From assembly GCA_015232315.1 (NCBI GenBank), contig JADFZZ010000013.1, positions 1 through 64,000 on the forward strand: 64,000 bases of DNA, written 5' to 3'. Within the stretch, counting starts at the first letter, position 1. Every line of letters starts with the position of its first letter. Source of the stretch: SAR324 cluster bacterium (GTDB taxonomy: Bacteria > SAR324 > NAC60-12). Below the pieces are notes generated by a model. It did no database searches and was not told the DNA's origin. It was given only the letters and a program-made list of their open reading frames with translations. Below are positions 6,910 to 61,622 of the stretch, piece after piece. Both the position numbers and the translations under genes were made by a program.

Positions 6910-8496
6910 ATGGACACATCATCTCGCTGGACCCGATTTCAAACTTTCTATCAAAACTACAAATCTTTGGGAATGGCACTGGATATTTCCAGAATGAATT
7001 TTTCTGCGGACTTTTTTGAAAAGCACCAGTCCTCCATTCAGCAGGCACTGACATCCATGAATCAATTGGAAAAGGGTGCCATCGCCAATCCTGATGAAAA
7101 CCGGATGGTTGGCCATTATTGGCTACGGAATGCAGACCTTGCCCCCACAGCGGAAATTGCCAAAGTCATTCGTGATACCGTGGAAAAGATCATTGAATTC
7201 TCCAGTTCCATCCATCATGGTCATATCAAATCCCAACGTGGTAAAAATTTCAGTCAGGTGCTCCTGATCGGAATTGGCGGATCGGCGTTAGGCCCTCAGT
7301 TTGTGGCCAACGCGCTGGGAGGCAGTGATGATCTGATGAGTTTTTATTTTTTTGACAACACCGACCCTGATGGGATGAATCGGGTGTTGTCCAGAATCGG
7401 ATCCAGACTGGATGAAACCCTGACACTGGTGATTTCCAAGTCTGGCGGAACCAAGGAAACACGGAATGGCATGCTGATCGCCAAGGCGGCCTATGCCAGG
7501 GCAGAGTTGAACTTTGCCAGACATGCCATTGCGATCACGGGAGAAGGCAGTGAACTGGACAACCTGGCCAAAGAAGAAGATTGGCTCAGTCGTTTTCCCA
7601 TGTGGGACTGGGTGGGCGGTCGTACCTCTGAAATTTCAGCCGTTGGGTTGCTGCCAGCCGCACTTCAGGGGATTGATATTGAAGGCATGCTCCAGGGAGC
7701 CCATGACATGGATGAAGCAACCAGAAATGTGAATTTGCTCCAAAACCCCGCGGCGTTGATTGCCCTGATGTGGGTACACATGGGAGAAGTCGGCACCACC
7801 AAAGATCTGGTGTTTCTGCCTTACAAAGACCGACTGGAATTGGTGAGTCGGTACCTACAGCAGTTGATCATGGAATCCATTGGTAAAGAAAAAAATCTCA
7901 AGGGTGACATCGTGCATGAAGGCATTGTTGTTTATGGTAACAAGGGTTCAACCGACCAGCATGCTTATGTTCAGCAACTTCGGGAAGGTCCGGCAGATTT
8001 TGCGGTAACTTTCATTGAAGTGTTGAAAGATGAACCGGGAACCAGTCTCATTGTGGAAGAAGATGTGACTTCCGGAGATTATCTGCACAGTTTTTTCATG
8101 GGAACCCGAAACGCGCTGTATGACAATGCACGGGAATCCATGACTATCACCATAGATGAAGTATCACCAAAAACGGTTGGCGCCCTGATTGCGTTGTTTG
8201 AACGGGCCGTAGGTCTATATTCGTTTATGAAAGGAATCAATGCCTATCATCAGCCGGGCGTTGAAGCCGGTAAAAAAGCCGCCACAGAAATGATCGCCAT
8301 TCAACGAAAAGCTTTGGCTCATTTGCGAAACAATCCATCCAGATCGTTTTCTGTGGAAGAACTGGCACGTGAACTGGATTCTGAAAAATCCCTTGAAGAA
8401 CTGTTCAAGATCCTCAATCATCTTGCGGTTAATCAACGTGTGTACGTTGAACCCGCCAGCACTGTGTTTGGCTCCACATATAAAATCAAAAACTAA
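6910..8496 (+). CDS. pgi: Glucose-6-phosphate isomerase
   Basis: A 528-residue cytoplasmic enzyme interconverting glucose-6-phosphate and fructose-6-phosphate. SIS-type sugar-phosphate motifs are clear: LLIGIGGSALGPQF, VISKSGGTKETRNG and the GDIVHEGIVVYGNKGSTDQH region with the catalytic His. It resembles the cyanobacterial/plastid-like branch in length and motif spacing. The last 60 residues (SFSVEELARELDSEKSLEELF) look like a short winged-helix-like extension. An AAGGAG site precedes the ATG. There is no obvious functional link to the neighbours. Confidence 0.95.
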   Translation: MDTSSRWTRFQTFYQNYKSLGMALDISRMNFSADFFEKHQSSIQQALTSMNQLEKGAIANPDENRMVGHYWLRNADLAPTAEIAKVIRDTVEKIIEFSSSIHHGHIKSQRGKNFSQVLLIGIGGSALGPQFVANALGGSDDLMSFYFFDNTDPDGMNRVLSRIGSRLDETLTLVISKSGGTKETRNGMLIAKAAYARAELNFARHAIAITGEGSELDNLAKEEDWLSRFPMWDWVGGRTSEISAVGLLPAALQGIDIEGMLQGAHDMDEATRNVNLLQNPAALIALMWVHMGEVGTTKDLVFLPYKDRLELVSRYLQQLIMESIGKEKNLKGDIVHEGIVVYGNKGSTDQHAYVQQLREGPADFAVTFIEVLKDEPGTSLIVEEDVTSGDYLHSFFMGTRNALYDNARESMTITIDEVSPKTVGALIALFERAVGLYSFMKGINAYHQPGVEAGKKAATEMIAIQRKALAHLRNNPSRSFSVEELARELDSEKSLEELFKILNHLAVNQRVYVEPASTVFGSTYKIKN

Positions 8497-43546: not shown

Positions 43547-43680
43547 CAGTGCTGTTTAATTTTCTAAAAAAGGATGCGTAGGATGGGTAGAGCCTTAGCG
43601 ATACCCATCGAGTTTTGTTGGGTTTCACTTCGTTCTACCCAACCTACCCACCATGCCAAACCAATAATTAAACGACACGG
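43547..43680. repeat. 134-bp MITE upstream of pfaA
   Basis: Ends are 15-bp imperfect inverted repeats (cagtgctgtttaatt against ccgtgtcgtttaatt, 12 of 15). An exact 9-bp direct repeat, cctcacact, flanks it at 43538-43546 and 43681-43689. The middle contains an inverted pair built on gtaggatgggtag and ctacccaacctac, a motif common in dispersed repeats of many bacteria. It sits 304 bp before pfaA in the 625-bp gap 43360-43984, where I see no gene; it may alter the pfa leader or promoter region. Confidence 0.82.
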
Positions 43681-43984: not shown

Positions 43985-46900
43985 ATGGCACGCAGCAAAC
44001 AGAATACTGACCCGTTGAACTCAGCTCTTCAGCGCACTCCCATTGCCGTTGTCGGCATGACAGGTGTATTTCCTGAGGCGCATAATCTTGGCGAGTATTG
44101 GGATAATATCCTGAAAGGTGTGGACTGTATTCGTGATGTTCCTCCATCCCGTTGGAGTCTGGATGACTATTATGACCCTGATCAGAACACCCCGGACAAA
44201 ACATACTGCAAACGTGGCGGTTTTCTGCCGGAACTGGATTTCAATCCCATGGAATTTGGATTGCCTCCCAATATTCTGGAAGTCACCGATGTTTCACAAT
44301 TGCTGGCGCTGGTGATTGCCCGTGATCTGCTGGATTCTTCAGGTTATGGTGAGTCCAGAAATTACGACCGGAACAAAATGGGAATCGTACTCGGATTGGG
44401 TGTCGGACAAAAATTGATTGGCCCCCTGATTTCAAGACTTCAATATCCGGTATTGGCCAAAGTTCTGAAAAGTGTGGGCGCCAGTGACGCTGACATAGAA
44501 AATGTGGTGGAAAAATTCAAAAAAGCCTACATCCGCTGGGAAGAAAACTCCTTTCCCGGAATGCTGGGGAACGTGGTTGCGGGACGCATCGCCAACCGCC
44601 TTGATCTGGGTGGTATCAACTGCGCGACCGATGCGGCCTGTGCCAGTTCCCTGGCGGCTGTTCGGCTGGCAGTCAGTGAATTGCTGGAACACCGCAGTGA
44701 AATGATGATTACCGGAGGCGTGGATACAGACAATTCGATTTTCATGTATCTGAGTTTCAGTAAAACCCCCGCATTCACTACCGCAGACCGGGTACAAACC
44801 TTCGATGCGGACTCCAAAGGAATGATGGTGGGCGAAGGCATCGGAATGGTTCTGCTCAAACGACTGGAAGACGCGGAACGGGATAAAGACCAGATTTTTG
44901 CGGTACTCCGCGGAATTGGCGCGTCCAGCGATGGTAAATTCAAAAGCATTTACGCACCTCGTCCGGCCGGTCAGGAAAAAGCACTGATTCGTGCCTATGA
45001 AGATGCGGGAATCAACCACCAGAGTATCGGCTTGATCGAAGCGCATGGAACAGGAACCGGAGCCGGGGACGTGTCTGAATTTCAGGCGTTGAACAAAGTG
45101 TTCAGTGTGGATAATCCCCAAAAACAGCACATTGCCCTCGGCAGTGTCAAATCCCAGATCGGACACGCCAAAGCCGCCGCAGGAGCCGCCGGATTCATCA
45201 AGGCTGTTCTGGCCCTGCATCACAAGGTTCTGCCGCCAACCATCAATGTCAAACAACCTAATCCCAAACTCAATGTCCAGGATTCTCCGTTTTACATCAA
45301 TACCGAATCCCGACCATGGATTACGCAAAATGGTGAATCCCGCCGTGCAGGAATCAGTGCCTTTGGCTTTGGGGGCACCAATTTTCATATTGTCCTTGAA
45401 GAATATCATCACGAACTCACCGGCAAACGATTCAACCGGATGGCGTCACCGGTGTTGATTCATGCGGAAACCCTGGAGGCTTTGAAACTAACCCTCAAAA
45501 ACAGTCTGGACCAATTACAGGGGCCCGATGGTCCACAACAATTTCCGGGATGGCTGGAAAACCATGGAATTCGGGAAATCCCCACGAATGATGTGCGGTT
45601 GGGTTTTGTGTGTGACAAACGTGAAGACGCCATCAGCAATCTGGAAGACGCTCTTCGGCTGTTGAGTGAAAAACCGGATCAGGACGCATGGGAGTCTTCC
45701 GGCATACATTTCCGCAAACAGGGACTTAAAACATCCGGCAAAGTGGTTGCGCTTTTTCCCGGACAAGGTTCCCAGTATCTCAATATGGGACGTGAACTGG
45801 CTAACTCATTCCCTGATATTCAGAAAGCCTATGAACAGATTGACGCCTTGTTTGTCAAAGATGGCGCTGAGCCGTTGTCCAAAAGAGTATTTCCGATTCC
45901 TGTTTTCAGTTCAGAAGAGACTGCTGTCAATCAGGATATTCTGCAATTGACCCAACATGCCCAGCCTTCCATCGGGACCTTCAGTGTAGGCTTATTCAAA
46001 ATTCTGGAAAAATGTGGCTTCAAGGCTGATTTTACCGCTGGTCACAGTTTTGGTGAACTCACCGCGCTGTGGGCGGCGGGTGTGCTCAATGATCCTGATT
46101 ATTTTGCGCTGGCCCGGGCTCGTGGAAAAGCGATGGCCGCTCCGGAGGATCCGAATTTTGACGCGGGCACCATGGCGGCTGTCATGGGTTCGACCGAAGC
46201 GATTCAGGCTGTGATCAATGATTTTCCCAATATCAAAATCGCCAATTTCAACTCACAAAAACAAAACGTGATTGCCGGTCCCAAACAAGAGGTCATCGAA
46301 GCTCAGAAAGCTTTGAAAAAACAAGGCTTGTCCGCAGTGCTGCTTCCGGTTTCCGCGGCCTTCCATACGCCGTTGGTGGGACACGCACAGAAACCGTTTG
46401 CCGACGCCATCGACAAAGTGACCTTCAAGGCTCCAGTCATTCCTGTTTATTCCAACGCAACCGGCCAGGCCTATCCCAAAACGCCGAAAACCATTCAGAA
46501 ACAACTCCAGGAGCATATTCTGCACTCTGTCAGATTTCAGAATGAAATCGAAAATATTTATCAGGATGGCGGGACCATTTTTGTGGAAATCGGCCCTAAA
46601 AACGTATTGACCAAACTGGTGGAAACCATTCTCAAGGGTAAGGATTTTCTGGCGATTGCCCTCAATCCAAATCCCAAAAAAGACAGTGACAGCCAACTGC
46701 GTGAAGCCGTTGTCCAGTTGAGTGTGGCTGGTTTCCCACTGCATGATTTTGACCCCTTCCAACCCACGCTGGAACCACCCAAAAAGACAAGTCCGGTCAG
46801 TGTGAAATTGTCAGGAAACAACTATGTCAGTCCCGCGACGTCCAAAGCCTTTGAAGACGCGTTGAAGGATGGTTATCGATTGCAGGGATTGGGAAAAATC

Positions 46901-49900
46901 CAGCAAACCGCCGGTACCACAGAAGCCACGCCCCAGGTTATAAAAACCCCCTCAAGTCCTGTGGTCAAAGCTCCGGTCGCCGCACCGGTTCAACCACCGC
47001 AAGCTGTAGTTGCGAAGCCTTCAACCCAGGTTATTTCGTCACCATCCGTATCCATTCCATCAGGGAGTCAACCGGCTATGAAACATACATCCTCTTCCGA
47101 GTTATCATCACCCCAGACTGTTTCCAACGGCAGTCCTCAACTGGAAAGAGTCATTGACAGCATTGAGCACAGTCTGTCTCACTTCTATACGTTGCAATCG
47201 GAAACCTTGAGAGTGCATGAAAAGTATCTGGAAAGCCCACGGGAATATTCCAGAACTTTCCTGGAACTGATGAAACTTCAGACAACGCTTGTGCAGAACA
47301 ACGCTGATATGCAGGTGATTTCAAACATGGAACATGGCATGGATATGTTTCATAATCATCAGGGAGAAACCCTGCGGGTTCATGAGCAATACCTGCACAC
47401 CCAGGCCGATCATTCACGAAGCGCTCTGGAACTGATGAGAGAACAATACAACGCCGTAGCCCACAGCATTGGCATGCCACAATCCGGGACAACCCTTGTT
47501 TCCACACCAGCACCGCGTCTGGAACAACGAGCTGCGGCACAGCCACAGATTCCAGTTCGAACACCAGTCCCCTCAAGACCTGCGCCTGTTCCTCCAGTGG
47601 CATCGCCGGCACCAGTGGTCACAGCGCCCAAACCAGTACAGGCACCAGCACCAGCACCCAAAGCAGCAATTCCCCAGTCCGCTCAAAGAGTGCAGCAACC
47701 TCCAACGCCGATAAAACCAGTGGTAGCGCCAGCACCTGCCGCACCATCAAAACCCGGTGTGGATGCAGAGCAACTGACAAAAACCATGCTTTCTGTAGTA
47801 AGCCAGAAAACTGGATATCCCACTGAAATGCTGGAACTCGGGATGGATATGGAAGCCGATCTGGGTATCGACTCTATCAAGCGGGTGGAAATCCTTGGCA
47901 CTGTCCAGGATCAATTTCCTCAATTGCCACAGATCAATCCGGAGGAACTGGCTGAATTACGCACGCTGGGTCAGATTGTGGATAAAATGAAATCCTTTAT
48001 TCCTGCCGGTGGAAGCTCCGTTTCGGTAGCGGCTCCAGTTGCCCGAACCGCAAGTATCCCTGCATCCCCGGCATCAACCACGGGGGCAGTCAACCTGAAT
48101 CAGGTGACAGACATCATGCTCAAGGTCGTGAGCGCAAAAACGGGCTATCCTGTAGAAATGCTGGAACTCGGTATGGACATGGAAGCCGATCTCGGCATTG
48201 ACTCCATCAAACGGGTGGAAATCCTTGGAACCGTGCAGGATCAATTGCCGGGCTTGCCACAGATCAACCCCGAAGAAATGACGGAGTTACGAACTTTGGG
48301 TCAAATTGTTGACAAAATGAAATCCAGCCTTGGAAGTGCCGCACCTGCTCCTGTTCAAGCACCAGCGGTTCCGTCAACTCCGGTGCCCTCCGCCCCGGCG
48401 ACCACAGTCCCGGCACAAACAGTCGGAACTGGACTGAATGTGGAACAAATCACCCAGACCATGCTCAAGGTTGTGAGCGCAAAAACGGGCTATCCCGTAG
48501 AAATGCTGGAACTCGGAATGGATATGGAAGCCGATCTCGGCATTGACTCCATCAAACGTGTGGAAATTCTCGGGACTGTGCAGGATCGTCTCCCCGGTCT
48601 TCCGGAATTCAATCAGGAAAGCCTGGCAGAACTGCGAACCCTTGGTCAAATTGTGGAATACATGAAACAGCAAACAAGTTCCGCAGGACCTTCTCACGAA
48701 GCTCCGGTAAAAAAAAAAGCCCTGACCAATCTGGTACCCTGCAGGGTCGCTAGACTTCAAAACATCCCCAATCCGGACTATCTGCCCTTCACTGGAGAAG
48801 GGCAGACCTGTCTGCTCACTCATGATGGCACCCCGTTGACTGCCGAACTGGCCCGACTCCTTCAGGAACAGGGCTGGGATGTTTGCGTGCTGATTTTCCC
48901 GGAATCCATAGTTGCCTCACCAGTTGTCATTCCACGGGAAATTCCACAGGTGGTCATGTCTGAAACGGGTGAAACCGCTATCATCAATACCCTACAGTTG
49001 ATCCGGGCAAAAACGGGCACGATCCAGGGGATGATTCATCTTAACCCCATTCAAAAATCTGTTGCCACCATTGAATTTTCAGATACCTCCAGAGCGTTGC
49101 TGTTGCACGTATTTCTTCTGGCAAAGCACATCAAAGACGATCTGAACCATACCCGAAGCACCTCCAGAAATTTTTTCATGACGGTGGTCAGACTGGATGG
49201 ACGTTTGGGACTTGCCGGACCTCACACATCCATCATTGAGGGTGGAATTGCCGGTATTTCCAAAACAGCCATGCGAGAGTGGCCTGATGTTTTCTGTCGC
49301 ACAGTGGATTTGCACCCGGAGCTTTCAGTTCAGCAAGCCGCGTCTTTTATCATGGCCGAAATGCATGATCCTGATTTGAGGCTGATGGAAACCGGCTATA
49401 CGTCGAAAGGAAGAGCCACCATTCTGGATGAAGTTGTCTCAGAAATTCAGTTGGAACCAACCCCTGGGCTTGTTACTGCGTCTTCGGTATTTCTGGTGAG
49501 TGGCGGCGCTAAAGGCGTCACCGCAGAATGCGCGATTCAACTGGCACAGAACAGCAAGTGCAAACTGATTTTAATCGGACGTTCCAACTATTCCGCCAAT
49601 GAACCGGAATGGGCCAAAGGCTGTGACGATGTCACCGAACTCAAACGGAGAGTGATGGAACATCTTAAATCCACAGGGGACAAACCGACTCCCGCAAAAA
49701 TTCAGCAACATCTGTCACCCGTGTTGTCCGGCAGGGAAATCAGAATGGCCTTGACTCGCATTCAGCAGGCAGGCGGTCAGGCGGAATACATCAGCGGGGA
49801 TGTGACAAACGCCGTAGATCTGAAACAGAAAATTGACCCCATCGTCAAAAAATGTGGTGCGATCACAGGTCTCATTCATGGTGCGGGAGTTCTCGCCGAC

Positions 49901-51187
49901 AAATGGCTGGAAAAGAAAACGATCAAAGATTTCGAAGCGGTTTATTCAACTAAAATTGATGGACTGAAAGCACTTCTGAGTCTTGTTGAACCCAATCAAC
50001 TTCAGCATCTGGTCATGTTTTCTTCCGCGGCAGGTTTTTATGGAAATCCGGGACAGGTGGATTATTCTGTGGCCAATGAAATTTTGAATAAAACCGCATG
50101 GCGCATGAAGCAACAATATCCGAAATGCCATGTGATTACCTTCAACTGGGGACCATGGGATGGGGGCATGGTCACTCCCGAACTCAAGCGAATGTTTACC
50201 CAGAAACAGGTATACATCATTCCGCTGGATCATGGTTCGCAACTGTTCGCACAATGCCTGACTTCCGCCAATGCTCCAGTTCAGATCATTGTCGGTAGTT
50301 CCATGCAGAGCGAAGGCGAAGTGCGTTATCCGGAACTGCGTTCATGGCATTTTTCCAGAAAACTCCGGGTAGAAGCCAACGCGTTCACCAAAGATCATGT
50401 GATTGGGGGGAATCAGGTGTTGCCCACCGTTTCAGTGATTGCGTGGATGGCTGATGCCTGTGAACAGATCTATCCCGGATTCACGTTTTTTCGCTGTGAT
50501 GATTACACCATGTTCAAAGGTGTGGTGTTTGATGAAACCCTGGCTGATGAATATTTTGTTGATTTGCGGGAAACGCTGAAAACGCCCGATGAGATAGATT
50601 TTGAAGTGAAAATTCAGAGTCTGGATTCCAAAGGGAACAACAGAGTTAATTACGGCGCAAAAATCAAACTGGTGCGAGTCATGCCTGAACGAGCCGTGTA
50701 CCAGTCGTTGGATCTAACCCGGCGTGAACCTGTTGATGGCAATATTTTTTATCAAAACGGCACCCTGTTTCATGGACCGCTGTTTCAGTCGATAGAAGAG
50801 GTTTTGAACCTTCAGGCTGAAAAACTGACCATGCGTTGCAAAGCGGTCGCCGTGAATGAAGCGGTTCAGGGACAGTTTCCGGTCAGAACCTTTGATCCAT
50901 TTTCCGCTGATGTACAATTTCAGGCCATGCTGATCTGGGCCAGACATTTTTATGATGCGGCCAGTCTGCCTTCACGGGCAGGTATCGGTGAACACTACCT
51001 GTCTGTCCCGGCAGGCGCGACCTTTTATGTGTCACTGGACATCCGCAAGCATTCAGCGTCCAATCTGGTCGCGGACATCACCGTCCATGATGAAAACGGA
51101 CTGATCTACACACGTGTCATCAATGCGGAAGTGACTCTGAGTAAACAGTTGAATCGATTGTTTGTGCCGGCAGGAAGTAAGAACTAG
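43985..51187 (+). CDS. pfaA: PUFA synthase subunit PfaA (KS-MAT-3xACP-KR-DH)
   Basis: A 2400-residue iterative, polyketide-synthase-like enzyme for long-chain polyunsaturated fatty acids. Ketosynthase (about 15-465): Cys219 in DAACASS and His in EAHGTGTG and SQIGHAKAA. Malonyltransferase (about 586-890): Ser688 in GHSFGE. A linker (about 1055-1160) has two copies of a TLRVHE.YL motif. Three acyl carrier domains carry the phosphopantetheine serines 1297, 1407 and 1522, each in LGIDSIKRVE. Ketoreductase (about 1835-2110): GGAKGVT loop and Tyr2027. The C-terminal 280 residues are a hot-dog dehydratase-like domain. No phosphopantetheinyl transferase gene (pfaE) is in the window. Confidence 0.96.
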   Translation: MARSKQNTDPLNSALQRTPIAVVGMTGVFPEAHNLGEYWDNILKGVDCIRDVPPSRWSLDDYYDPDQNTPDKTYCKRGGFLPELDFNPMEFGLPPNILEVTDVSQLLALVIARDLLDSSGYGESRNYDRNKMGIVLGLGVGQKLIGPLISRLQYPVLAKVLKSVGASDADIENVVEKFKKAYIRWEENSFPGMLGNVVAGRIANRLDLGGINCATDAACASSLAAVRLAVSELLEHRSEMMITGGVDTDNSIFMYLSFSKTPAFTTADRVQTFDADSKGMMVGEGIGMVLLKRLEDAERDKDQIFAVLRGIGASSDGKFKSIYAPRPAGQEKALIRAYEDAGINHQSIGLIEAHGTGTGAGDVSEFQALNKVFSVDNPQKQHIALGSVKSQIGHAKAAAGAAGFIKAVLALHHKVLPPTINVKQPNPKLNVQDSPFYINTESRPWITQNGESRRAGISAFGFGGTNFHIVLEEYHHELTGKRFNRMASPVLIHAETLEALKLTLKNSLDQLQGPDGPQQFPGWLENHGIREIPTNDVRLGFVCDKREDAISNLEDALRLLSEKPDQDAWESSGIHFRKQGLKTSGKVVALFPGQGSQYLNMGRELANSFPDIQKAYEQIDALFVKDGAEPLSKRVFPIPVFSSEETAVNQDILQLTQHAQPSIGTFSVGLFKILEKCGFKADFTAGHSFGELTALWAAGVLNDPDYFALARARGKAMAAPEDPNFDAGTMAAVMGSTEAIQAVINDFPNIKIANFNSQKQNVIAGPKQEVIEAQKALKKQGLSAVLLPVSAAFHTPLVGHAQKPFADAIDKVTFKAPVIPVYSNATGQAYPKTPKTIQKQLQEHILHSVRFQNEIENIYQDGGTIFVEIGPKNVLTKLVETILKGKDFLAIALNPNPKKDSDSQLREAVVQLSVAGFPLHDFDPFQPTLEPPKKTSPVSVKLSGNNYVSPATSKAFEDALKDGYRLQGLGKIQQTAGTTEATPQVIKTPSSPVVKAPVAAPVQPPQAVVAKPSTQVISSPSVSIPSGSQPAMKHTSSSELSSPQTVSNGSPQLERVIDSIEHSLSHFYTLQSETLRVHEKYLESPREYSRTFLELMKLQTTLVQNNADMQVISNMEHGMDMFHNHQGETLRVHEQYLHTQADHSRSALELMREQYNAVAHSIGMPQSGTTLVSTPAPRLEQRAAAQPQIPVRTPVPSRPAPVPPVASPAPVVTAPKPVQAPAPAPKAAIPQSAQRVQQPPTPIKPVVAPAPAAPSKPGVDAEQLTKTMLSVVSQKTGYPTEMLELGMDMEADLGIDSIKRVEILGTVQDQFPQLPQINPEELAELRTLGQIVDKMKSFIPAGGSSVSVAAPVARTASIPASPASTTGAVNLNQVTDIMLKVVSAKTGYPVEMLELGMDMEADLGIDSIKRVEILGTVQDQLPGLPQINPEEMTELRTLGQIVDKMKSSLGSAAPAPVQAPAVPSTPVPSAPATTVPAQTVGTGLNVEQITQTMLKVVSAKTGYPVEMLELGMDMEADLGIDSIKRVEILGTVQDRLPGLPEFNQESLAELRTLGQIVEYMKQQTSSAGPSHEAPVKKKALTNLVPCRVARLQNIPNPDYLPFTGEGQTCLLTHDGTPLTAELARLLQEQGWDVCVLIFPESIVASPVVIPREIPQVVMSETGETAIINTLQLIRAKTGTIQGMIHLNPIQKSVATIEFSDTSRALLLHVFLLAKHIKDDLNHTRSTSRNFFMTVVRLDGRLGLAGPHTSIIEGGIAGISKTAMREWPDVFCRTVDLHPELSVQQAASFIMAEMHDPDLRLMETGYTSKGRATILDEVVSEIQLEPTPGLVTASSVFLVSGGAKGVTAECAIQLAQNSKCKLILIGRSNYSANEPEWAKGCDDVTELKRRVMEHLKSTGDKPTPAKIQQHLSPVLSGREIRMALTRIQQAGGQAEYISGDVTNAVDLKQKIDPIVKKCGAITGLIHGAGVLADKWLEKKTIKDFEAVYSTKIDGLKALLSLVEPNQLQHLVMFSSAAGFYGNPGQVDYSVANEILNKTAWRMKQQYPKCHVITFNWGPWDGGMVTPELKRMFTQKQVYIIPLDHGSQLFAQCLTSANAPVQIIVGSSMQSEGEVRYPELRSWHFSRKLRVEANAFTKDHVIGGNQVLPTVSVIAWMADACEQIYPGFTFFRCDDYTMFKGVVFDETLADEYFVDLRETLKTPDEIDFEVKIQSLDSKGNNRVNYGAKIKLVRVMPERAVYQSLDLTRREPVDGNIFYQNGTLFHGPLFQSIEEVLNLQAEKLTMRCKAVAVNEAVQGQFPVRTFDPFSADVQFQAMLIWARHFYDAASLPSRAGIGEHYLSVPAGATFYVSLDIRKHSASNLVADITVHDENGLIYTRVINAEVTLSKQLNRLFVPAGSKN
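48106..48660 (+). repeat. Near-identical ACP domain repeats inside pfaA
   Basis: The second and third carrier-domain coding blocks (about 48106-48320 and 48451-48665) are almost identical at the DNA level over the stretch from gtgagcgcaaaaacgggcta to the KRVEIL codons. The first block (about 47773-47990) is more diverged. This indicates a recent duplication or gene conversion and a site of likely copy-number change. Confidence 0.8.
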
Positions 51188-51196
51188 GGTTTTGAT

Positions 51197-51520
51197 ATGC
51201 TTGGAAAATTAACACAGTATCTTCAATTTCAGTTGCATGAATATCAAATTGAATATCGGGTGCATTCAACTCAACGAATGGCTCAACGGAATGTTACTGT
51301 TGAGGATGTGGAATCATCGTTACTGAATGGTGACGTCATTGAAGAATATCTGTCTGATTTTCCATTTCCAAGTGTTCTTATGAATGCTGTAACCCCAAAA
51401 GGAAGAAGGTTGCATGTGGTAGTTGGAATGAATCATATAGCAAAAATACTTGTGATTATAACTGTTTATGAGCCTGATCCTGTCAAATGGGATATTTCTT
51501 TTACGAAAAGGATTTTATGA
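51197..51520 (+). CDS. DUF4258-type protein, probable toxin of a TA pair
   Basis: A 107-residue soluble protein matching the DUF4258 pattern: YRVHSTQRMAQRNVTVEDVE near the N-terminus, then ngDVIEEYLSDFPFPSVLM, GRRLHVVVGM and a C-terminal IITVYEPDPVKW. Proteins of this type are often the toxin partner of YgiT-type zinc-finger antitoxins, and such a gene follows with a four-base overlap. It starts nine bases after the pfaA stop, so it should be co-transcribed with pfaA. Toxicity is inference. Confidence 0.82.
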   Translation: MLGKLTQYLQFQLHEYQIEYRVHSTQRMAQRNVTVEDVESSLLNGDVIEEYLSDFPFPSVLMNAVTPKGRRLHVVVGMNHIAKILVIITVYEPDPVKWDISFTKRIL

Positions 51521-51741
51521 AATGCGCAATTTGCCATCATGGACAGACCGAACCTGATAAAATTCATGTGACATTGAAAAGAGACAATACCATTCTGGTG
51601 TTTCAAAATGTACCTGCTCAAGTTTGTGATAATTGTGGAGAAGAATATCTATCTTCCGAAACAAACCACTTATTGTTGGAACAAGCCAATCGGTCATTTG
51701 CTCACCATGAGTTATTGAGTCTTCTTGATTTTGTCGCATAA
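51517..51741 (+). CDS. YgiT-type zinc-finger protein, probable antitoxin
   Basis: A 75-residue protein starting at ATG 51517 inside the previous stop (ATGA). Two CxxC pairs (Cys3/Cys6 and Cys37/Cys40) match the YgiT/MqsA N-terminal zinc-binding domain: MKCAICHHGQ and VCDNCGEEYL. It lacks the C-terminal helix-turn-helix of MqsA. With the DUF4258 protein it forms a compact type II-like toxin-antitoxin pair lying between pfaA and pfaC. Confidence 0.85.
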   Translation: MKCAICHHGQTEPDKIHVTLKRDNTILVFQNVPAQVCDNCGEEYLSSETNHLLLEQANRSFAHHELLSLLDFVA

Positions 51742-51875: not shown

Positions 51876-54800
51876 ATGGAAAAAATCGCAGTGATTGGTT
51901 TGTCAAATCTGTTTCCTGAAGCGAAAACTCCTGAGGAATTCTGGAGCAATCTGATTGGACAGAAGGATTCCCGGACGGTTGCCACAGAAAGACAGATGGG
52001 AACGGATCCGACAGTTTTTTATAATGACAAAAAAAGTGTTCCCGACCGATATTACTGTCTCAAGGGTGGATATATCAATGATTTCAGTCTGGATTATGAA
52101 GATTTGAATCTGCCCTCTGAGCAAATTGCCGCACTGGATGATGTGTTCAAATGGTCGTTGTATGTGTCCAGAGAAGCATTGAAAGACAGCGGATATCTGG
52201 GAAAACGAACCGAACTGGCCAAAACAGGAATCATTCTGGCCAACCTGTCCTTTCCAACCAAATGGTCCAATCACCTGTTTTTTCCCATTTATCATTCCGC
52301 GTTGGAACATCACCTCAAACAATTGTTGAATGACCAGAATTTCAAACTGGAACGCTACCTGCCGGAAAGCCCGGTTTCCCCCTACAATGCCATGATTTCA
52401 GGCTATCCCGCCGCTGTCGCGGCTCAGGCACTGGATTTGGGAGGCATCAATTTTGGACTGGATGCCGCCTGTGCTTCGTCGTTGTATTCCGTCAAACTGG
52501 CCTGTGATTATCTGCTCACACACAAGGCGGATATGATGCTGGCTGGCGCAGTCAGTGCCGCGGATCCGTTTTTTGTCAATATGGGTTTTTCAATTTTTCA
52601 GGCTTATCCACAAAATCACCAGAGTCGCCCTCTTGATAAAAACTCCCAGGGATTGTTTGCCGGAGAAGGTGCGGGAATGCTGGTGCTAAAACGCTACAAC
52701 GATGCCTTGAAAGATGGCGACCGGATCTATGCCACCATTCTCGGAGAAGGTGTTTCCAACGATGGCAAGGGACAGTTTGTGCTGAGCCCGAATCCCCGGG
52801 GGCAGATTCTGGCCTTTGAACGGGCGTATGCCGACGCCAAAGTGGAGCCTACAGTGATTGATTATGTGGAATGCCACGCCACTGGAACCCCTCTGGGTGA
52901 CAAGGTGGAAATGGCTTCCATGGATACTTTTTTCGGACGCTATGGAGTTTCGCCGCTCATTGGCTCCGTCAAATCCAATCTGGGACATTTGCTGACAGCC
53001 GCGGGAATGCCCGGCATGTTGAAGGTGATTCTGAGCATGTCTGCCGGGGAAATTCCCCCCACCATCAACTTGACTGATCCCTTGAGTTCACCCAATCAGG
53101 TCATTCCTTCCAAAAATATTCCGACTCAACCGATCGCATGGCCTGGCAAGGAAAAGGATTCGATCAAACATGCCGGGGTGAGTGTGTTTGGTTTTGGCGG
53201 ATGCAACGCACACCTGATTTTTGAACAGGAAACAGAAGAATCCTCAGGCAATTCAAGACAACTCCTGTTGTCAGATCCGCTCCCGGTTCGTGAACGCAAG
53301 CCGCTCGCACCGATGGCAATTATCGGCATGGAGGCATTCTTTGGTTCATGCCATGGGCTGGCGGCCTTTCACAAAACATTGTATGACGGCATTCAGCATT
53401 TCATTAACCTTCCAGAAAAACGCTGGAAAGGGATCGACCAGTTGGGGGATCTCCTGAAATCGTATGGACTGCCAGAAGGAAAACCCCCGATTGGCGCATA
53501 TATTGACGAATTTGGAATTGATTTTTTACGTCATAAAATTCCGCCTGTGGCCAATGATCCACTCATTCCCCAGCAATTGCTGATGATCCATGTGGCGGAT
53601 GAAGCCCTTAAAAACGCAGGGATGAAGGAAGGTGGGAATGTGGCTGTGCTGATTGCCATGGGCACTGAACTGGAATTGCATCAATTCCGGGGACGGGTGA
53701 ACCTGGATGATCAGATTCCTCGAACATTAAAAAACTATCCCGGTTTGTCTGAAGAACAGAAACAACAACTTCTTGGTCTGTCCAAGGACAGCATCCACGA
53801 CACCGCCCAGATCAACCAATACACCAGTTTTATCGGCAATATCATGGCCTCCCGCATTTCCTCACGCTGGGATTTCACGGGTCCGTCTTTCACGATTTCC
53901 GCAGAAGAAAATTCAGTATTCAAAGCACTGGAAGTCGCACAGATGCTACTGGATCTCGGTGAAATTGACGCCGCGGTGGTTGGTGCTGTGGATCTGGCGG
54001 GAAGCATTGAAAACGTGCTGATACGCAACCGGATTTCACCCGTGAATCAGGGCAGTGTGACCATGAGTTTTGACCGGCAATCCAGTGGCTGGAGTGTCGG
54101 CGAGGGCGCGGGCGCCGTGGTGCTGAAACGTGCGGACGCGGCCAGAAAAAATAACGACAGGATTTATGCTGAAATCCGCTCCATTGGTGTGAGTCATGGC
54201 CAAACCGCGGACTCTGTCCTCAAAGCGGCTCAAATGGCAATGCATGATGCCGGAGTGAAATCCGGAAATATTGAATATCTTGAACTGTATGCCAGTGGCT
54301 TTGGCGAAGAGAATCATCATGAAATTCAAGGTTTGCTGAAAGCCTATGAATCACAACCGACTCTGAACTGCGCTGTCGGCAGTGTGAAATCCAGCATTGG
54401 GCATACTTTCGCGGCATCAGGAATTGCCAGTTTGATCAAAACCGCCTTGTGTCTGCATCATCGTTTCATTCCCCAAACACCGGGATGGAACGCACCCAAA
54501 AAGCCGGAATTGTGGCAGAATGGTCCATTTTATGTCCCGGTAGAGTCCAAAACATGGTTTGTGGATAACGAGGATGAAACCCGGTTTGCCGCCATCAGTG
54601 GCCTTGGTCTCGATGGAACCTGTTCCCATCTGGTACTGTCGGAAGGTCCAAAATCCGTAGCTCATGCCGGACGTTACCTGGAATCATGCGCCGTGACCCT
54701 GTTGCCCTTGTGCGCTGAAGATGCCGGACATTTGAAACAGGCGTTACAAACTCTGCGGCAGGAACTGGCCTCTGAAAAACCTGTCCCGGAAATCGCCTGG

Positions 54801-57800
54801 GAACGATTTCTTATTTCACAGCAAACTCCTACAGCAGCATTTGCCGCGGCCGTGGTGGGGGAAAGCCGCGAAGAATTGATCCGGGAAATTGAAATGATGA
54901 TCGGCGCACTGGATGAAACCGCCAGCAAACGGAAAAGCTGGACTTCACTGAAAGGCAGCACCGTCACTTTCAAGCCCTTGGGAAACACGGGCAAAGTCGC
55001 GTTTGTCTTTCCCGGCGGCTTCAATTCTTATCCGGGAGTTGGGAAAGATATTTTTCAATTGTTTCCTGAACTGCATGATCAGGTTTCCTCGCACACCACC
55101 CAACTCAGGCAGATGGTTGGCGAACGCTGGTTGAACCCGCGAACCATTGCCCGTATGAGCGATGCTGAACTCAAGCAGTATTCCATGGCCATGGTGGATG
55201 AAGCCATCATGATGTTTGAAAGCGGCATCACCTATGCCGTGATGTATACCGACATTATCCGTGAAATTTTTAAGGTGAAGCCTGACATGACCTTGGGTTA
55301 CAGCATGGGCGAAGTGACCATGATGTATGCTTTCGGGGTTTGGGGACGGACCGATCAGATGAGTCAGACGCTCAAGACCTCGCCCGTATTTCAGACACGA
55401 TTGGCCGGACCAATGGACACCGTGCGTGAAGCGTGGGGTATTTCACCAAACGATTATCCCGGAAATGATCATTCATTCTGGAAATGCTATACCCTGAAAA
55501 CCCGGATTGAACGGGTCAGGGACGCCTTGAAAGATGAACCGAAAGTGTTTCCGATCATCATCAACACCGCTGAAGAAATCGTGATTGCAGGAGAAGACAA
55601 GGCCTGTGCCCGGGTTATACAGAAACTGGGCTGTGACGCGATGCTGGTGCCAATGAGTGATGTGATGCATTGTGAACTGGTGAATGCGGATCATGAAGCG
55701 TTGAGAACTCTGCACGACTGCGCTGTCGTTCACACTCCGGATGTAGCCTGTTATTCCGCTGTCGGCTTCAAACCCCTTTCACTCACCACCGGGGCCATTG
55801 CCCAAAACATCGCTGATTTGTATTGCACGCAAGTGGACTTCCCTCGTCTTGTGCAACAGACATGGCAGGATGGTGCCCGCATTTTCATTGAACTTGGTCC
55901 ACGGGGAAGTTGCACCAAATGGATTGGCGAAACGCTGAAAGACCAGGAACATCTGGCGATAGAAATTGATCGCCGGGGAGTGAAGGAGGCTGTCAGTATT
56001 GTGCGTCTGCTGGCACGACTGTTCAGCCATCGAGTGCCGATGGATCTGTCCAGACTGTATCCGGAACCTCAAGCTGTGGCCAATCAAAAATCATTGATCC
56101 GACAGATCCCTTTGGGGGGAAGGTTGATGCAGTCAGTAGTTTTTAACGACGCCAATCTGGCATTGTTTGGCAAAAAACCGAAAGAGGTTCCTCCTGTCGC
56201 CATTACAACCGTAAAGTCGGACCAGACAGCAACACCTGCGAGTGTTCTTCAAACAGCAAATGCCACACCCAAACCCGAAATGACACGTCAGAAACCGATT
56301 CCGTCTCCGGCGCCTGCGTCCAAACCGATTTCTGTTCAATCTCAAATTTCAAAACCTGTGACCCCATCGGTAACCATGCCTAATGCACCTGTTCCTTCTG
56401 TAACAGCAATTCGTTCAGTATCCACGGTTCAACGCCCGGCAGAAACTGTGAATTCCGCTCATGTTCATGAACATTCCAGTGTCTACGAAAGCAATTTATC
56501 CACAGTAAGTTCGATGCACACCGCATTTCTGGAAACCCGACAACTGGGAATGCTGCAACTGGCAGAAATGATCAAACTTCAGGCTGTTTATCAGACTCTG
56601 CATCAGACAGGTTCAGCTATTACGTATCATGTTCCACATGCTGCGATATTGCCGGTGACTCCGGTCCCGTCAGTTCCTGCGCAAAAAATTTTCCAACAGG
56701 CACCCGCACCAACAAGAGAAAAACTCACCAGAACAGACGTGATCTGGGATCAGGAAGATCTGGTGGAATTTGCTGAAGGCAGGATCGGGAATGTGTTTGG
56801 TCCGGAATTTGACATCATTGATTCCTACCACCGCCGAGTCCGACTGCCTACCACTGATTATCTGCTGGTAACCCGTGTGACCAAACTGGATGCCAAACCC
56901 CATGTGTTTGAACCATCTTCATTGACAACCGAATATGACATTCCCCACGATGCTTGGTACTCCATTGATCATCAGATTCCCTGGGCAGTTTGCGTGGAGT
57001 CGGGCCAGTGCGACCTGTTGCTGATCAGCTATCTTGGCATCGACTTTGAGTGCAAGGGCGAACGGGTTTATCGTCTGCTGGACTGCACCCTGACTTTTAC
57101 TGATGAATTGCCCAAAGATGGCGAAACCCTGCGATATGACATTAAAATCAATTCTTTTGCCCGGAATGGTGGAAACCTGCTGTTTTTCTTCAGTTATGAG
57201 TGTTTCGTGGAAAACAGACTGGTGCTGAAAATGGATGGCGGATGTGCTGGATTTTTCGATGATCAGGAACTGGAACGGGGCAAAGGCGTGATTCTGACCC
57301 AAAAAGAACTGGATGAAAAAAGCCGGATTCAAAAACAATATTTTGAACCGTTGATCCAATGCCCCAAAACATCCTTCAACAAGGATGAACTGCTACAAAT
57401 CATTCATGGTGACCTGCTTGCCTGTTTTGGTGGCAATTATCAACAGCAGGGGAACAATCCATCGTTGCGGTTTGCCGCTGAAAAAATGCTGATGATCGAA
57501 CAGATTGTTTCCATTGAACCCCATGGCGGCGCCTGGGGACTTGGATTGGTGATCGCAGACAAGGAACTGGATCCTGAACACTGGTATTTCCCCTGCCACT
57601 TCAAGGATGATCAGGTGATGGCCGGTTCCCTGATGGCTGAAGGTTGCGGACAACTCCTGCAATTTTTCATGCTCTATCTGGGTTTGCAAACTCTCACACA
57701 GGATGCCCGGTTCCAGCCCATTCCTGGTCTGCCCCAGAAAGTACGTTGCCGGGGACAGGTTTTGCCGCAGAAAGGTATTTTGCGCTATCGCATGGAAGTG

Positions 57801-59129
57801 ACCGAAATCGGTCTGTCGCCAGTGCCCTATGCCAAAGCCAATGTGGATATTCTGCTGGGCGACAAAGTTGTCGTGGATTTCCGTGACCTTGGCATTCAGT
57901 TGACTGAAAAATCAGTCACTGATCCTGTGCCGGGAATGATTCGGTCCCAGGCCACTCAAATTCAGACAAGGCAACAGACACCCGCAAAACCGGAACTGTT
58001 CAATAAATATCAACTGATAGAATTCGCGACCGGCAAAATTTCAAACTGCTTTGGACCCGAATTTGCGATTTATGACAATCGGCAACCACCCCGAACGCCC
58101 AATGGTGATTTGCAGTTGATTGACCGTGTGCTGGAAGTGACCGGAGAACGACATAATTTCAAGGAACCTTCCGCTGTTGTTTCAGAATACGATGTCCCGG
58201 TTGACGCCTGGTATTTCAGGGGGAATTCCCATCCTTCATGGATGCCCTATTCGGTGATCATGGAAATTTCACTCCAACCCAACGGCTTCATTTCCGCATG
58301 GTCCGGAACCACACTGCTTTATCCGGAGGTGGATTTTTATTTCCGCAACCTGGATGGCAAGGGAAAACTGCTAAGGGATATTGATCTGCGAGGCAAAACC
58401 ATCACCAACAAATCGAGACTGTTATCAACAGTTTCTTCTGGAAACACGATCATTCAGCAATTTGATTTTGAATTGCTCCATGACGACGATCCTTTTTATC
58501 AGGGAACCGCTGTGTTTGGCTATTTCACCAAAGACATGCTGGTCAATCAGGCTGGACTGGATGCCGGACGCAAAACAGTTCCCTGGCATGAACGGGAACA
58601 GATTGCGCCACACAGTATGGTGAAGGTGACATTGAAAAATATGGAATCGCCCTTGTTTCAGGCACCTGCCGGAAAACCCCATTACCGCCTGGCGGACTGG
58701 CAACTCAATTTTCTGGATGAAGTGCTGATTTCACCGCAGGGTGGAACCGCTGGCAAAGGATACATTCATGGTTTGAAAAATATTGATGTGTCAGACTGGT
58801 TTTTCCCGTGCCATTTCCATCAGGATCCTGTCATGCCCGGTTCTCTGGGTGTGGAGTCCATCCTCCAGGCAATGCAGGTATTCTGTCTGCAACAGGGCTT
58901 GGGATCATCGTTTCAGTCACCGCGTTTCACACACAGGCTTGACACCGTGTTCTGGAAATACCGTGGACAGATCATTCCGGCCAACCGCCAGATGACCATC
59001 GAAGTGAATATCACCGACATTCAGCAGACTGCGGATTGTGTGACCGTGATTGCCAGGGCGAACCTGATGAAAGACAACCTGCGGATTTATGAAATCACCG
59101 ACATCGCCCTGTGTGTGGTGGAAGCATGA
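51876..59129 (+). CDS. pfaC: PUFA synthase PfaC with fused PfaB-type acyltransferase (KS-CLF-AT-DH-DH)
   Basis: A 2417-residue subunit. An active ketosynthase (about 1-455, Cys199 in DAACASS) is followed by a chain-length-factor-like KS (about 478-925) with Glu678 in place of the Cys. Next is an acyltransferase (about 1041-1370) with Ser1143 in GYSMGE; in Shewanella-type clusters this is a separate protein, PfaB. A Pro/Ala-rich linker contains a helix (SSMHTAFLETRQLGMLQLAE) like the one in PfaA. Two FabA-like dehydratases end the protein, with His1908 (FPCHFKDDQVMAGS) and His2313 (FPCHFHQDPVMPGS). AAGGA precedes the ATG. Confidence 0.95.
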   Translation: MEKIAVIGLSNLFPEAKTPEEFWSNLIGQKDSRTVATERQMGTDPTVFYNDKKSVPDRYYCLKGGYINDFSLDYEDLNLPSEQIAALDDVFKWSLYVSREALKDSGYLGKRTELAKTGIILANLSFPTKWSNHLFFPIYHSALEHHLKQLLNDQNFKLERYLPESPVSPYNAMISGYPAAVAAQALDLGGINFGLDAACASSLYSVKLACDYLLTHKADMMLAGAVSAADPFFVNMGFSIFQAYPQNHQSRPLDKNSQGLFAGEGAGMLVLKRYNDALKDGDRIYATILGEGVSNDGKGQFVLSPNPRGQILAFERAYADAKVEPTVIDYVECHATGTPLGDKVEMASMDTFFGRYGVSPLIGSVKSNLGHLLTAAGMPGMLKVILSMSAGEIPPTINLTDPLSSPNQVIPSKNIPTQPIAWPGKEKDSIKHAGVSVFGFGGCNAHLIFEQETEESSGNSRQLLLSDPLPVRERKPLAPMAIIGMEAFFGSCHGLAAFHKTLYDGIQHFINLPEKRWKGIDQLGDLLKSYGLPEGKPPIGAYIDEFGIDFLRHKIPPVANDPLIPQQLLMIHVADEALKNAGMKEGGNVAVLIAMGTELELHQFRGRVNLDDQIPRTLKNYPGLSEEQKQQLLGLSKDSIHDTAQINQYTSFIGNIMASRISSRWDFTGPSFTISAEENSVFKALEVAQMLLDLGEIDAAVVGAVDLAGSIENVLIRNRISPVNQGSVTMSFDRQSSGWSVGEGAGAVVLKRADAARKNNDRIYAEIRSIGVSHGQTADSVLKAAQMAMHDAGVKSGNIEYLELYASGFGEENHHEIQGLLKAYESQPTLNCAVGSVKSSIGHTFAASGIASLIKTALCLHHRFIPQTPGWNAPKKPELWQNGPFYVPVESKTWFVDNEDETRFAAISGLGLDGTCSHLVLSEGPKSVAHAGRYLESCAVTLLPLCAEDAGHLKQALQTLRQELASEKPVPEIAWERFLISQQTPTAAFAAAVVGESREELIREIEMMIGALDETASKRKSWTSLKGSTVTFKPLGNTGKVAFVFPGGFNSYPGVGKDIFQLFPELHDQVSSHTTQLRQMVGERWLNPRTIARMSDAELKQYSMAMVDEAIMMFESGITYAVMYTDIIREIFKVKPDMTLGYSMGEVTMMYAFGVWGRTDQMSQTLKTSPVFQTRLAGPMDTVREAWGISPNDYPGNDHSFWKCYTLKTRIERVRDALKDEPKVFPIIINTAEEIVIAGEDKACARVIQKLGCDAMLVPMSDVMHCELVNADHEALRTLHDCAVVHTPDVACYSAVGFKPLSLTTGAIAQNIADLYCTQVDFPRLVQQTWQDGARIFIELGPRGSCTKWIGETLKDQEHLAIEIDRRGVKEAVSIVRLLARLFSHRVPMDLSRLYPEPQAVANQKSLIRQIPLGGRLMQSVVFNDANLALFGKKPKEVPPVAITTVKSDQTATPASVLQTANATPKPEMTRQKPIPSPAPASKPISVQSQISKPVTPSVTMPNAPVPSVTAIRSVSTVQRPAETVNSAHVHEHSSVYESNLSTVSSMHTAFLETRQLGMLQLAEMIKLQAVYQTLHQTGSAITYHVPHAAILPVTPVPSVPAQKIFQQAPAPTREKLTRTDVIWDQEDLVEFAEGRIGNVFGPEFDIIDSYHRRVRLPTTDYLLVTRVTKLDAKPHVFEPSSLTTEYDIPHDAWYSIDHQIPWAVCVESGQCDLLLISYLGIDFECKGERVYRLLDCTLTFTDELPKDGETLRYDIKINSFARNGGNLLFFFSYECFVENRLVLKMDGGCAGFFDDQELERGKGVILTQKELDEKSRIQKQYFEPLIQCPKTSFNKDELLQIIHGDLLACFGGNYQQQGNNPSLRFAAEKMLMIEQIVSIEPHGGAWGLGLVIADKELDPEHWYFPCHFKDDQVMAGSLMAEGCGQLLQFFMLYLGLQTLTQDARFQPIPGLPQKVRCRGQVLPQKGILRYRMEVTEIGLSPVPYAKANVDILLGDKVVVDFRDLGIQLTEKSVTDPVPGMIRSQATQIQTRQQTPAKPELFNKYQLIEFATGKISNCFGPEFAIYDNRQPPRTPNGDLQLIDRVLEVTGERHNFKEPSAVVSEYDVPVDAWYFRGNSHPSWMPYSVIMEISLQPNGFISAWSGTTLLYPEVDFYFRNLDGKGKLLRDIDLRGKTITNKSRLLSTVSSGNTIIQQFDFELLHDDDPFYQGTAVFGYFTKDMLVNQAGLDAGRKTVPWHEREQIAPHSMVKVTLKNMESPLFQAPAGKPHYRLADWQLNFLDEVLISPQGGTAGKGYIHGLKNIDVSDWFFPCHFHQDPVMPGSLGVESILQAMQVFCLQQGLGSSFQSPRFTHRLDTVFWKYRGQIIPANRQMTIEVNITDIQQTADCVTVIARANLMKDNLRIYEITDIALCVVEA

Positions 59130-59149: not shown

Positions 59150-59266
59150 ATGCCCGAAGTTTACGAAATATTAACGGAAATTCAGAATCCCGCCCTTTAT
59201 TTCGCACCGGTTATGATCAATGAAGAAACCGCCAGATTGATGATTCATCGAAATATTGATTGCTGA
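59150..59266 (+). CDS. Possible 38-residue protein
   Basis: A short frame (MPEVYEILTE...HRNIDC) starting 20 bp after the pfaC stop, with AAGGA at good spacing. It might be a small gene or the remnant of a longer one. I do not recognise it. It ends 18 bp before the antitoxin gene. Confidence 0.35.
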   Translation: MPEVYEILTEIQNPALYFAPVMINEETARLMIHRNIDC

Positions 59267-59284: not shown

Positions 59285-59545
59285 ATGGTTACAAGAGAAT
59301 TGCTTAAATCAGAAATAGACAGGGTCAAAGATGAGCATTTGATTGCATTATACAATATCATCAAAGTTTTTGAATTACCGGAAGGGTCCATCTTGCCTGA
59401 TTCAGGAATCAAGCCGAATGAGATTGAAACGACACAGTACCCGGACTGGCATCATTTTATAGAAACAAGTTATGGCTGTTTGCGGGATGACCCTATCGAA
59501 CGTGCCTCCCAAGGCAACTATGAAACCAGGGAGACTATTGAATGA
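59285..59545 (+). CDS. Probable VapB-like antitoxin
   Basis: An 86-residue acidic protein: an N-terminal helical part (TRELLKSEIDRVKDEHLIAL) like DUF2281/Phd-type antitoxins, then a flexible acidic tail ending NYETRETIE. It overlaps the PIN-domain gene by four bases (ATGA), the standard layout antitoxin then toxin. AAGGA precedes the ATG. The exact antitoxin family is uncertain. Confidence 0.72.
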   Translation: MVTRELLKSEIDRVKDEHLIALYNIIKVFELPEGSILPDSGIKPNEIETTQYPDWHHFIETSYGCLRDDPIERASQGNYETRETIE

Positions 59546-59943
59546 AGTATCTATTGGATACCAACACATGTATTCGTTTTTTGAATGGACGTTCTGAGCA
59601 AATCAAAATGCGAATTGAGGGTTTAACTCCCGATGAAATCCTGCTTTGTTCTATTGTTAAAGCAGAGTTGTTTTATGGAGCATTGAAGAGCCAGTATCCT
59701 GAAAAAAATCTTGCCAGGCAGCTTCAATTTGTAAATCGTTTTTTATCTCTATCCTTTAATGATACCGCAGCAGATGCGTATAGTCACATTAGAACCCAAT
59801 TGGAAAAAAAGGGCACCCCAATCGGACCAAATGATTTGATAATCGCATCAATTGCCGTTGCCAATAAACTGATTCTTGTCTCCCATAACACGAAAGAGTT
59901 TTCCAGAATTCCAGACCTGATGCTCGAAGATTGGGAGCTGTAG
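59542..59943 (+). CDS. vapC: PIN-domain ribonuclease toxin (VapC family)
   Basis: A 133-residue PIN-domain protein with all acidic metal-binding positions: Asp6 (YLLDTNTCI), Glu42 (VKAELFYG), Asp98 (GPNDLIIA), and Asn116 in VSHNTKEF, a common variant. VapC toxins cleave tRNA or rRNA. With the preceding antitoxin gene it forms a second toxin-antitoxin pair, this time between pfaC and pfaD. Confidence 0.92.
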   Translation: MKYLLDTNTCIRFLNGRSEQIKMRIEGLTPDEILLCSIVKAELFYGALKSQYPEKNLARQLQFVNRFLSLSFNDTAADAYSHIRTQLEKKGTPIGPNDLIIASIAVANKLILVSHNTKEFSRIPDLMLEDWEL

Positions 59944-59993: not shown

Positions 59994-61622
59994 ATGAATC
60001 CTACAAATTTTACACCAGTTCAATTCACAAGTCGGTCATCAACGCCTCATTTCGGGTGGCGTGTGCCGGAAAGTACAGTTGAGTTCGATGCGGGCTCCAT
60101 CAAGGCGTTGTTGCTTGATTCTTCCAATCCCTGTTATCTGGTGTCAGTCAATGGTCAGTTTGGCATCAGCCAGCAGGCATTCACAGTAGCCGAATTTCCA
60201 GATGGCATATCGGTAGAGGCGTATGTTCCAGCGATTCCTGTCGATCAACTGGGGGATGCGGGTTTCCTCCACACTCACGGAACCCGATATGCCTTTTATG
60301 CCGGAGCGATGGCCAACGGAATTGCTTCAGCAAAAATGGTGATCGCACTCGGACAGCACGGTTTTCTGGGGAGTTTTGGTGCGGCTGGTTTGGTGCCAGC
60401 CACTATTGAAAAAGCGATTCATGCCATTCAAACCGCACTGCCGAACGGGCCTTATGCATTCAATCTGATCCACAGTCCCAGTGAACCCGCTCTGGAACGG
60501 GGTGCCGTGGAACTTTATCTGAAACATGGGGTTCATACCGTGGAAGCCTCCGCGTTTCTGGATTTGACACCATCGATCGTGTATTACCGTGTGTCGGGAC
60601 TGGCAGAAACTCAGGAAGGGCACATTCAGGTGAATAACAAGGTGATTGCCAAAATTTCAAGAGGCGAAGTGGCCTCCAAATTCATGCACCCTGCCCCGGA
60701 AAAAATACTGTCACAACTGGTTCAGCAAGGAATGATCAGCGAACGCCAGGCTCAACTGGCCCAATATATTCCTATGGCTGATGACATCACGGTAGAAGCG
60801 GATTCAGGAGGACACACGGACAATCGACCGTTGGTTTCTTTGTTGCCATCCATCCTTTCATTACGAGATGACCTGCAGGCGCAGTTGGGGTATGCGACAC
60901 CAGTCCGTGTTGGCGCAGGTGGGGGCATTGGCACTCCGATGGCCGCTTTGGGGGCGTTCATGATGGGTGCGGCGTATATTGTGACTGGTTCTGTCAATCA
61001 GGCCTGTGTTGAGGCCGGAGCATCAGAACACACCCGCAAATTGCTGGCTCAGGCGGATATGGCCGATGTGACCATGGCTCCGGCCGCGGATATGTTTGAG
61101 ATGGGCGTGAAACTGCAAGTGTTGAAACGGGGAACGTTGTTTGCGATGCGTGCGCAGAAACTCTATGAACTTTACATGGCGTATAATTCCATAGAAGAAA
61201 TTCCAGCCGCGGAACGTGAAAAAATTGAAAAACAGATTTTCCGGCAAAGTCTGGATCAAGTCTGGCAAACCACGGTTTCGTATTTTTCTGAACGTGACCC
61301 TCAGCAGATCGAACGGGCAAAGGATAATCCCAAACGCAAAATGGCTCTGATTTTTCGCTGGTATCTTGGTCTATCTTCCCGCTGGTCCAATTCAGGTGAA
61401 CCCGGCCGGGAAATGGATTATCAAATCTGGAGCGGTCCGGCCATGGGGGCGTTCAACGCCTGGACCCATAATTCCTATCTGGCAGACTATACCCAGCGTC
61501 ATGTTGTCGATGTGAACTGGCATATTCTTTCCGGAAGCGCCTATCTCTACCGCATCCAGCAACTTCAGCTCCAGGGGGCGACATTTTCACCTGAACTGAC
61601 CCGCTATATTCCTTATCAATAG
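59994..61622 (+). CDS. pfaD: PUFA synthase enoyl reductase PfaD
   Basis: A 542-residue FMN-dependent enoyl reductase of the PfaD family (nitronate-monooxygenase-like TIM barrel). Visible motifs are HTHGTRYAFYAGAMANGI, GLVPATIEKAIHAIQ, the flavin phosphate-binding region VRVGAGGGIGTPMAALGA and AAYIVTGSVNQACVEAG. It works with PfaA and PfaC to reduce selected double bonds during chain growth. AGGAAC lies before the ATG. It completes the set A, C(+B), D; the phosphopantetheinyl transferase is not in the window. Confidence 0.95.
   Translation: MNPTNFTPVQFTSRSSTPHFGWRVPESTVEFDAGSIKALLLDSSNPCYLVSVNGQFGISQQAFTVAEFPDGISVEAYVPAIPVDQLGDAGFLHTHGTRYAFYAGAMANGIASAKMVIALGQHGFLGSFGAAGLVPATIEKAIHAIQTALPNGPYAFNLIHSPSEPALERGAVELYLKHGVHTVEASAFLDLTPSIVYYRVSGLAETQEGHIQVNNKVIAKISRGEVASKFMHPAPEKILSQLVQQGMISERQAQLAQYIPMADDITVEADSGGHTDNRPLVSLLPSILSLRDDLQAQLGYATPVRVGAGGGIGTPMAALGAFMMGAAYIVTGSVNQACVEAGASEHTRKLLAQADMADVTMAPAADMFEMGVKLQVLKRGTLFAMRAQKLYELYMAYNSIEEIPAAEREKIEKQIFRQSLDQVWQTTVSYFSERDPQQIERAKDNPKRKMALIFRWYLGLSSRWSNSGEPGREMDYQIWSGPAMGAFNAWTHNSYLADYTQRHVVDVNWHILSGSAYLYRIQQLQLQGATFSPELTRYIPYQ

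Follow-up and report, generated by a model that had tools for sequence, protein, structure and literature searches.

The window, the whole 64,000-nt stretch of DNA that we analyzed, belongs to contig 13 of the 5.25-Mb draft genome of a SAR324 bacterium and contains a pfa cluster in which pfaA, pfaC, pfaD and both vapBC genes run in one direction. The cluster begins with a pfaA-type PUFA synthase gene (43985..51187, + strand) encoding a protein of 2400 aa with Pfam KS, AT, ACP repeat, KR and DH domains. The next large gene (51876..59129, + strand) is of the pfaC type and encodes 2417 aa; according to its NCBIfam matches, the KS and FabA domains of this protein are pfaC-like and its AT region is PfaB-like. 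The pfaD enoyl-reductase gene (59994..61622, + strand; 542 aa; TIGR02814, 678.8 bits) follows. As the earlier note had described, a toxin-antitoxin (TA) pair lies between pfaC and pfaD. It consists of a VapB-type antitoxin gene (59285..59545, + strand; 86 aa) and a VapC toxin gene (59542..59943, + strand; 133 aa), which overlap by the 4 nt ATGA (59542-59545), and it is located 155 bp downstream of pfaC and 50 bp upstream of pfaD. Between pfaC and vapB, the gene caller and the sequence indicate a 38-aa open frame (59150..59266, + strand), which is preceded by a Shine-Dalgarno-like TAAGGA; it had no Pfam match and no convincing relative among the compared loci. Internal promoter and terminator sites at the pfaC-pfaD junction were no commoner than in shuffled sequences. 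Two promoter-like sites were found there compared with 2.8 expected, both on the - strand and none on the + strand.

The other internal junction of the cluster holds a TA pair of a different family, as had also been claimed. A gene for a DUF4258 protein, a putative toxin (51197..51520, + strand; PF14076, 71.6 bits), begins 9 bp past the end of pfaA and is followed by a gene for a YgiT-type zinc-finger antitoxin-like protein (51517..51741, + strand; TIGR03831, 45.3 bits), so that this pair occupies 51197-51741 of the pfaA-pfaC junction. The longest open reading frame of the zinc-finger gene starts at 51487, and from the sequence we read the ATG at 51517 as its likely start, which gives a 4-nt ATGA overlap with the DUF4258 gene. 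The same order, with the DUF4258 gene ahead of the YgiT-type gene, is met in a second pair on contig 23 of the host (G000:C23).

The toxin at 59542-59943 is firmly placed in its family. Its Pfam PIN match reached 63.8 bits against a cut-off of 23.6, and it scored above the curated cut-off of the NCBIfam family NF047863, "tRNA(fMet)-specific endonuclease VapC" (149.2 versus 140 bits). Solved VapC chains of the tRNA(fMet) type aligned with it from end to end (best E 8.9e-27), and the acidic residues D6, E42 and D98 of the toxin are in register with the D, E and D of the best-matching chain. Cleavage of the initiator tRNA by VapC is established in Shigella and Salmonella and has been shown for Leptospira (PMC4105405). 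The pfaC-pfaD pair resembles the tRNA(fMet) VapBC systems of these bacteria (NF047863; PDB 3tnd, 6ifc) in toxin family, length and catalytic acids as well as in the antitoxin-then-toxin order and the overlapping gene ends, but the N-terminus of its antitoxin is not of the AbrB-like type that is paired with most SAR324 VapC relatives. Those relatives, in the sampled SAR324 genomes, mostly have an AbrB-like partner with the motif AKLFxNGxSQAVRLP.

The designation of the antitoxin as VapB-like is supported by its role and its position upstream of VapC and by the match of its C-terminal tail, but not by a family assignment, since no Pfam or NCBIfam family matched the 86-aa protein. When it was compared with plasmid proteins, no match was obtained at E 0.01, and a looser limit returned tail matches only. 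Over its last ~44 residues it aligns at 43% identity with the product of the gene immediately upstream of a VapC gene on a Nostoc plasmid. Over the final 29 residues, several further Nostoc and Scytonema plasmid proteins match at 48-55% identity, and at least five of these adjoin an annotated VapC or PIN gene. No paralogue was found in the host genome and no convincing homologue in SAR324 relatives. The antitoxin thus appears, from these alignments, to combine a different N-terminal part with a toxin-binding tail that is conserved; modular antitoxins of such make-up are well known. Overall, the pair at 59285-59943 is an intact, ordinary type II VapBC module.

The closest plasmid homologues of the toxin, from cyanobacteria and Chloroflexi, are 56-57% identical to it, among them those of plasmid-borne VapBC pairs in Nostoc and Herpetosiphon (NZ_CP091916, CP000876), whereas the best match in 57 other sampled genomes, mostly of SAR324 relatives, reached 43%. 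The partner of the Nostoc VapC shares the C-terminal tail of our antitoxin and differs in its N-terminal part. That Nostoc pair is plasmid-borne, as is the Herpetosiphon pair, unlike the one studied here, but it too is enclosed by what resembles an operon, with hsdM on one side and hsdS on the other. The greater closeness of the plasmid toxins favors, short of proving, horizontal transfer, and the pfaC-pfaD VapBC was probably acquired in this way. Neither pfa TA pair showed a convincing target-site duplication or convincing direct or inverted flanking repeats, and the stretches before vapB and after the YgiT-type gene had no second copy elsewhere in the host genome.

The earlier note had proposed that TA modules are selected as anchors of this large cluster. 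We surveyed other pfa and pfa-like clusters, using loci from 80 genome contig records and further SAR324 stretches. The organization of pfa genes differs between bacteria (PMC4882568); about 82 other clusters showed the junction before pfaD, and about 211 internal junctions were available in total. In this survey, which pools hosts of differing TA density and includes cyanobacterial pfa-like clusters, a TA pair was present at 1 of the ~211 internal junctions and thus in 1 of the ~82 clusters. The single case, in Oscillochloris sp. ZM17-4, is a YefM/YoeB pair (L107:9399-9954; PhdYeFM 57.6 bits, YoeB 115.2 bits) that separates a pfaC-like from a pfaD-like gene. The junction corresponds to that of the host VapBC and the cluster is homologous, but the TA family is unrelated and the pair represents a separate event. 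The other SAR324 pfa clusters that we examined were free of TA pairs at their internal junctions. In the nearest of them, that of SAR324 PL25a_bin.125, the gene order is the same and the pfaC and pfaD proteins are 51-66% identical to those of the host; only 61 bp precede pfaD and ~70 bp separate the pfaA and pfaC matches, and both junctions are therefore too small for a TA pair. Elsewhere, pfaA and pfaC of a further family member are separated by the gene for a 302-aa protein that looks acyltransferase-like by eye and is not a TA component (L130:3495-4403), and the long pfaC-pfaD junction of a Trichodesmium MAG (L035:7192-8351) contains apparent remnants, also judged by eye, of a Uma2-type nuclease gene. 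Because surveyed junctions sometimes hold extra genes such as YefM/YoeB and the 302-aa protein, pfa clusters accept an insertion now and then, and few of them contain a TA pair. Our literature search returned no paper on TA pairs within pfa clusters.

We estimated the TA density of the host from family searches and from twenty 20-kb stretches (400 kb) whose coordinates were picked before their content was seen. Genes were predicted with a home-made caller, and TA modules were spotted by eye and then checked against Pfam, where some matched weakly. The sample contained ~339 genes and 7 TA-type modules, which extrapolates to ~92 modules per genome (95% CI 37-189, a wide interval given the small sample of 7). 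Both neighbors could be resolved for 5 of the 7 modules, and all 5 lie in the same sense between co-directional genes. Among ~214 co-directional junctions between non-TA genes, 5 hold TA modules, an occupancy of ~2.3%; four of these junctions contain resolved modules, with two modules in one of them, and the fifth, at a stretch edge, contains HepT/HEPN pairs. At this occupancy, ~1.1 pairs of filled junctions flanking a single gene are expected per genome, with a range from 0.18 at 0.9% occupancy to 3.6 at 4.2%; at the low end, a double occupancy would be uncommon, with a probability of 0.16, although chance would still produce one in about 1 genome in 6. Counted by distance, 37 to 92 modules should give 2 to 12 neighboring pairs no more than 8.1 kb apart.

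The position of the pfa pairs is also the usual one. Outside the window, 19 of the 24 modules with resolved neighbors sit in sense between co-directional genes. Ordinary two-gene units do so at a rate of 61% (69/114), so that the excess of the TA modules over them is slight (p 0.045), but it is strong in comparison with insertion in random orientation (p 4e-5). These counts and orientation statistics identify the sense position inside gene runs as the normal TA setting in this genome, and they agree with the weaker alternative offered in the earlier note, that the junctions tolerate insertions. Other runs of the host are filled similarly. In a MoxR/Bat-like run on contig 20 (L131), a YgiT-finger gene occupies one internal junction and a Phd-like pair with a PIN gene another, and two VapBC pairs stand two genes apart in one co-directional run on contig 1 (L134). 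On contig 15 (L132), a VapBC pair lies 12 bp and 3 bp from neighbors that by eye look restriction-modification-like, and a TA module is also found in the neighborhood of valS. Separately, we observed four TA-type modules (VapBC-like, DUF5615/DUF433, HepT/MNT and HEPN/MNT) within 7 kb of one host stretch (L163:12796-19689).

Two filled junctions in one three-gene cluster had been considered unlikely to be chance. The host TA density, which predicts about one such neighboring pair per genome, and the two further runs with modules at two internal junctions argue otherwise, and since chance alone supplies about one case, the double occupancy of the pfa cluster is unsurprising in this host. The earlier note would have taken TA pairs at a similar density in most operons of the host as evidence against its reading. 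Most operons do not carry them, but in a softer form the objection stands, since the filling of ~2% of co-directional junctions suffices to make the pfa case unremarkable. Within the intervals given, the arrangement requires no special explanation.

Short noncoding interspersed repeats of ~100-200 bp are scattered through the host genome (56 in 644 kb), for example at L131:7670-7762, L131:8325-8536, L135:5309-5435, L139:5642-5764, L143:5786-5911, L143:6614-6736 and positions 43568-43673 of the window. Such a repeat lies within 250 bp of 16 of 31 TA modules compared with 21 of 150 control gene pairs (14%; Fisher p 1.6e-5), and the DUF4258/YgiT pair on contig 23 has one repeat family on both sides. 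At another locus, the 97-bp 3′ end of a decayed VapC gene is duplicated (L142:5729-5825 and 6986-7082; 99% identical), with the two copies flanking a stretch that contains a ParD/RelE-like pair, which suggests TA module turnover.

Several other explanations were weighed against simple insertion. If TA modules were selected as anchors that guard a large, dispensable pfa cluster against loss by addiction, one would point to this cluster, with both of its internal junctions filled, and to the independent arrival of YefM/YoeB at the pfaC-pfaD junction of Oscillochloris. However, the modules do not recur with the cluster, as the only other case in ~82 is of a different TA family and the other SAR324 pfa clusters examined have none. 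Nor are they enriched over other host junctions, given the genome-wide filling of ~2% and a chance prediction of about one such double occupancy, and the survey already suggests that TA pairs are not more frequent at pfa junctions than at matched ones of the same genomes. The presence of TA modules in unrelated host runs (MoxR/Bat, restriction-modification-like, the valS neighborhood) likewise indicates that pfa is not special. We therefore regard selection for anchoring as highly improbable. A lineage-specific co-option, in which both modules stabilize or regulate this particular cluster, would be invisible to a cross-genome survey whose nearest cluster is as distant as that of PL25a_bin.125; we consider it very unlikely, although a shade less so.

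Recruitment of the pair as an operon regulator, with its autoregulated promoter or the activity of VapC tuning the output of pfaD and of PUFA, is no easier to credit than anchoring. The sense orientation and short gaps on either side (155 and 50 bp) are compatible with co-transcription, but the junction offers no promoter-like site on the + strand and VapBC is not conserved in other pfa clusters. The repeats provide a further possibility, namely that TA modules, including the pfa pairs, spread as cassettes by recombination between flanking copies. The frequent proximity of repeats to host TA modules and the bracketed pair on contig 23 speak for such a process. However, no interspersed repeat lies within 250 bp of either pfa pair, unlike many host TA modules, and the flanks of the pfa pairs have no other genomic copy, so that for these two pairs we judge it the most improbable of the alternatives.

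Taken together, our data make it very probable that the VapBC pair is an ordinary passenger inserted in the pfaC-pfaD junction of a TA-rich SAR324 genome, with no part in PUFA synthesis and no role as a conserved anchor. As a putative course of events, VapBC would have entered the junction in the sense direction, and the DUF4258/YgiT pair between pfaA and pfaC would be the result of another insertion, broadly similar but independent. The ATGA overlap is expected to couple the translation of VapB and VapC, whose complex would be inactive. Upon loss of the labile VapB, VapC is predicted to cut the initiator tRNA and thereby stop translation, and cells that lose the module would be penalized. Such self-addiction, together with a sense insertion between genes that leaves the operon unbroken, could explain why the module persists. 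Parts of the published literature (PMC7280312, PMC2701414) favor regarding chromosomal TA systems as selfish elements for the most part.

The association of TA modules with short interspersed repeats in this SAR324 genome may deserve a proper study of its own. The arrangement leaves the view of PUFA synthesis unchanged, but it illustrates that in a TA-rich genome chance can be expected to produce a striking gene order, and the filling of ~2% of co-directional junctions provides a base rate for assessing any claim that TA modules anchor a gene cluster.
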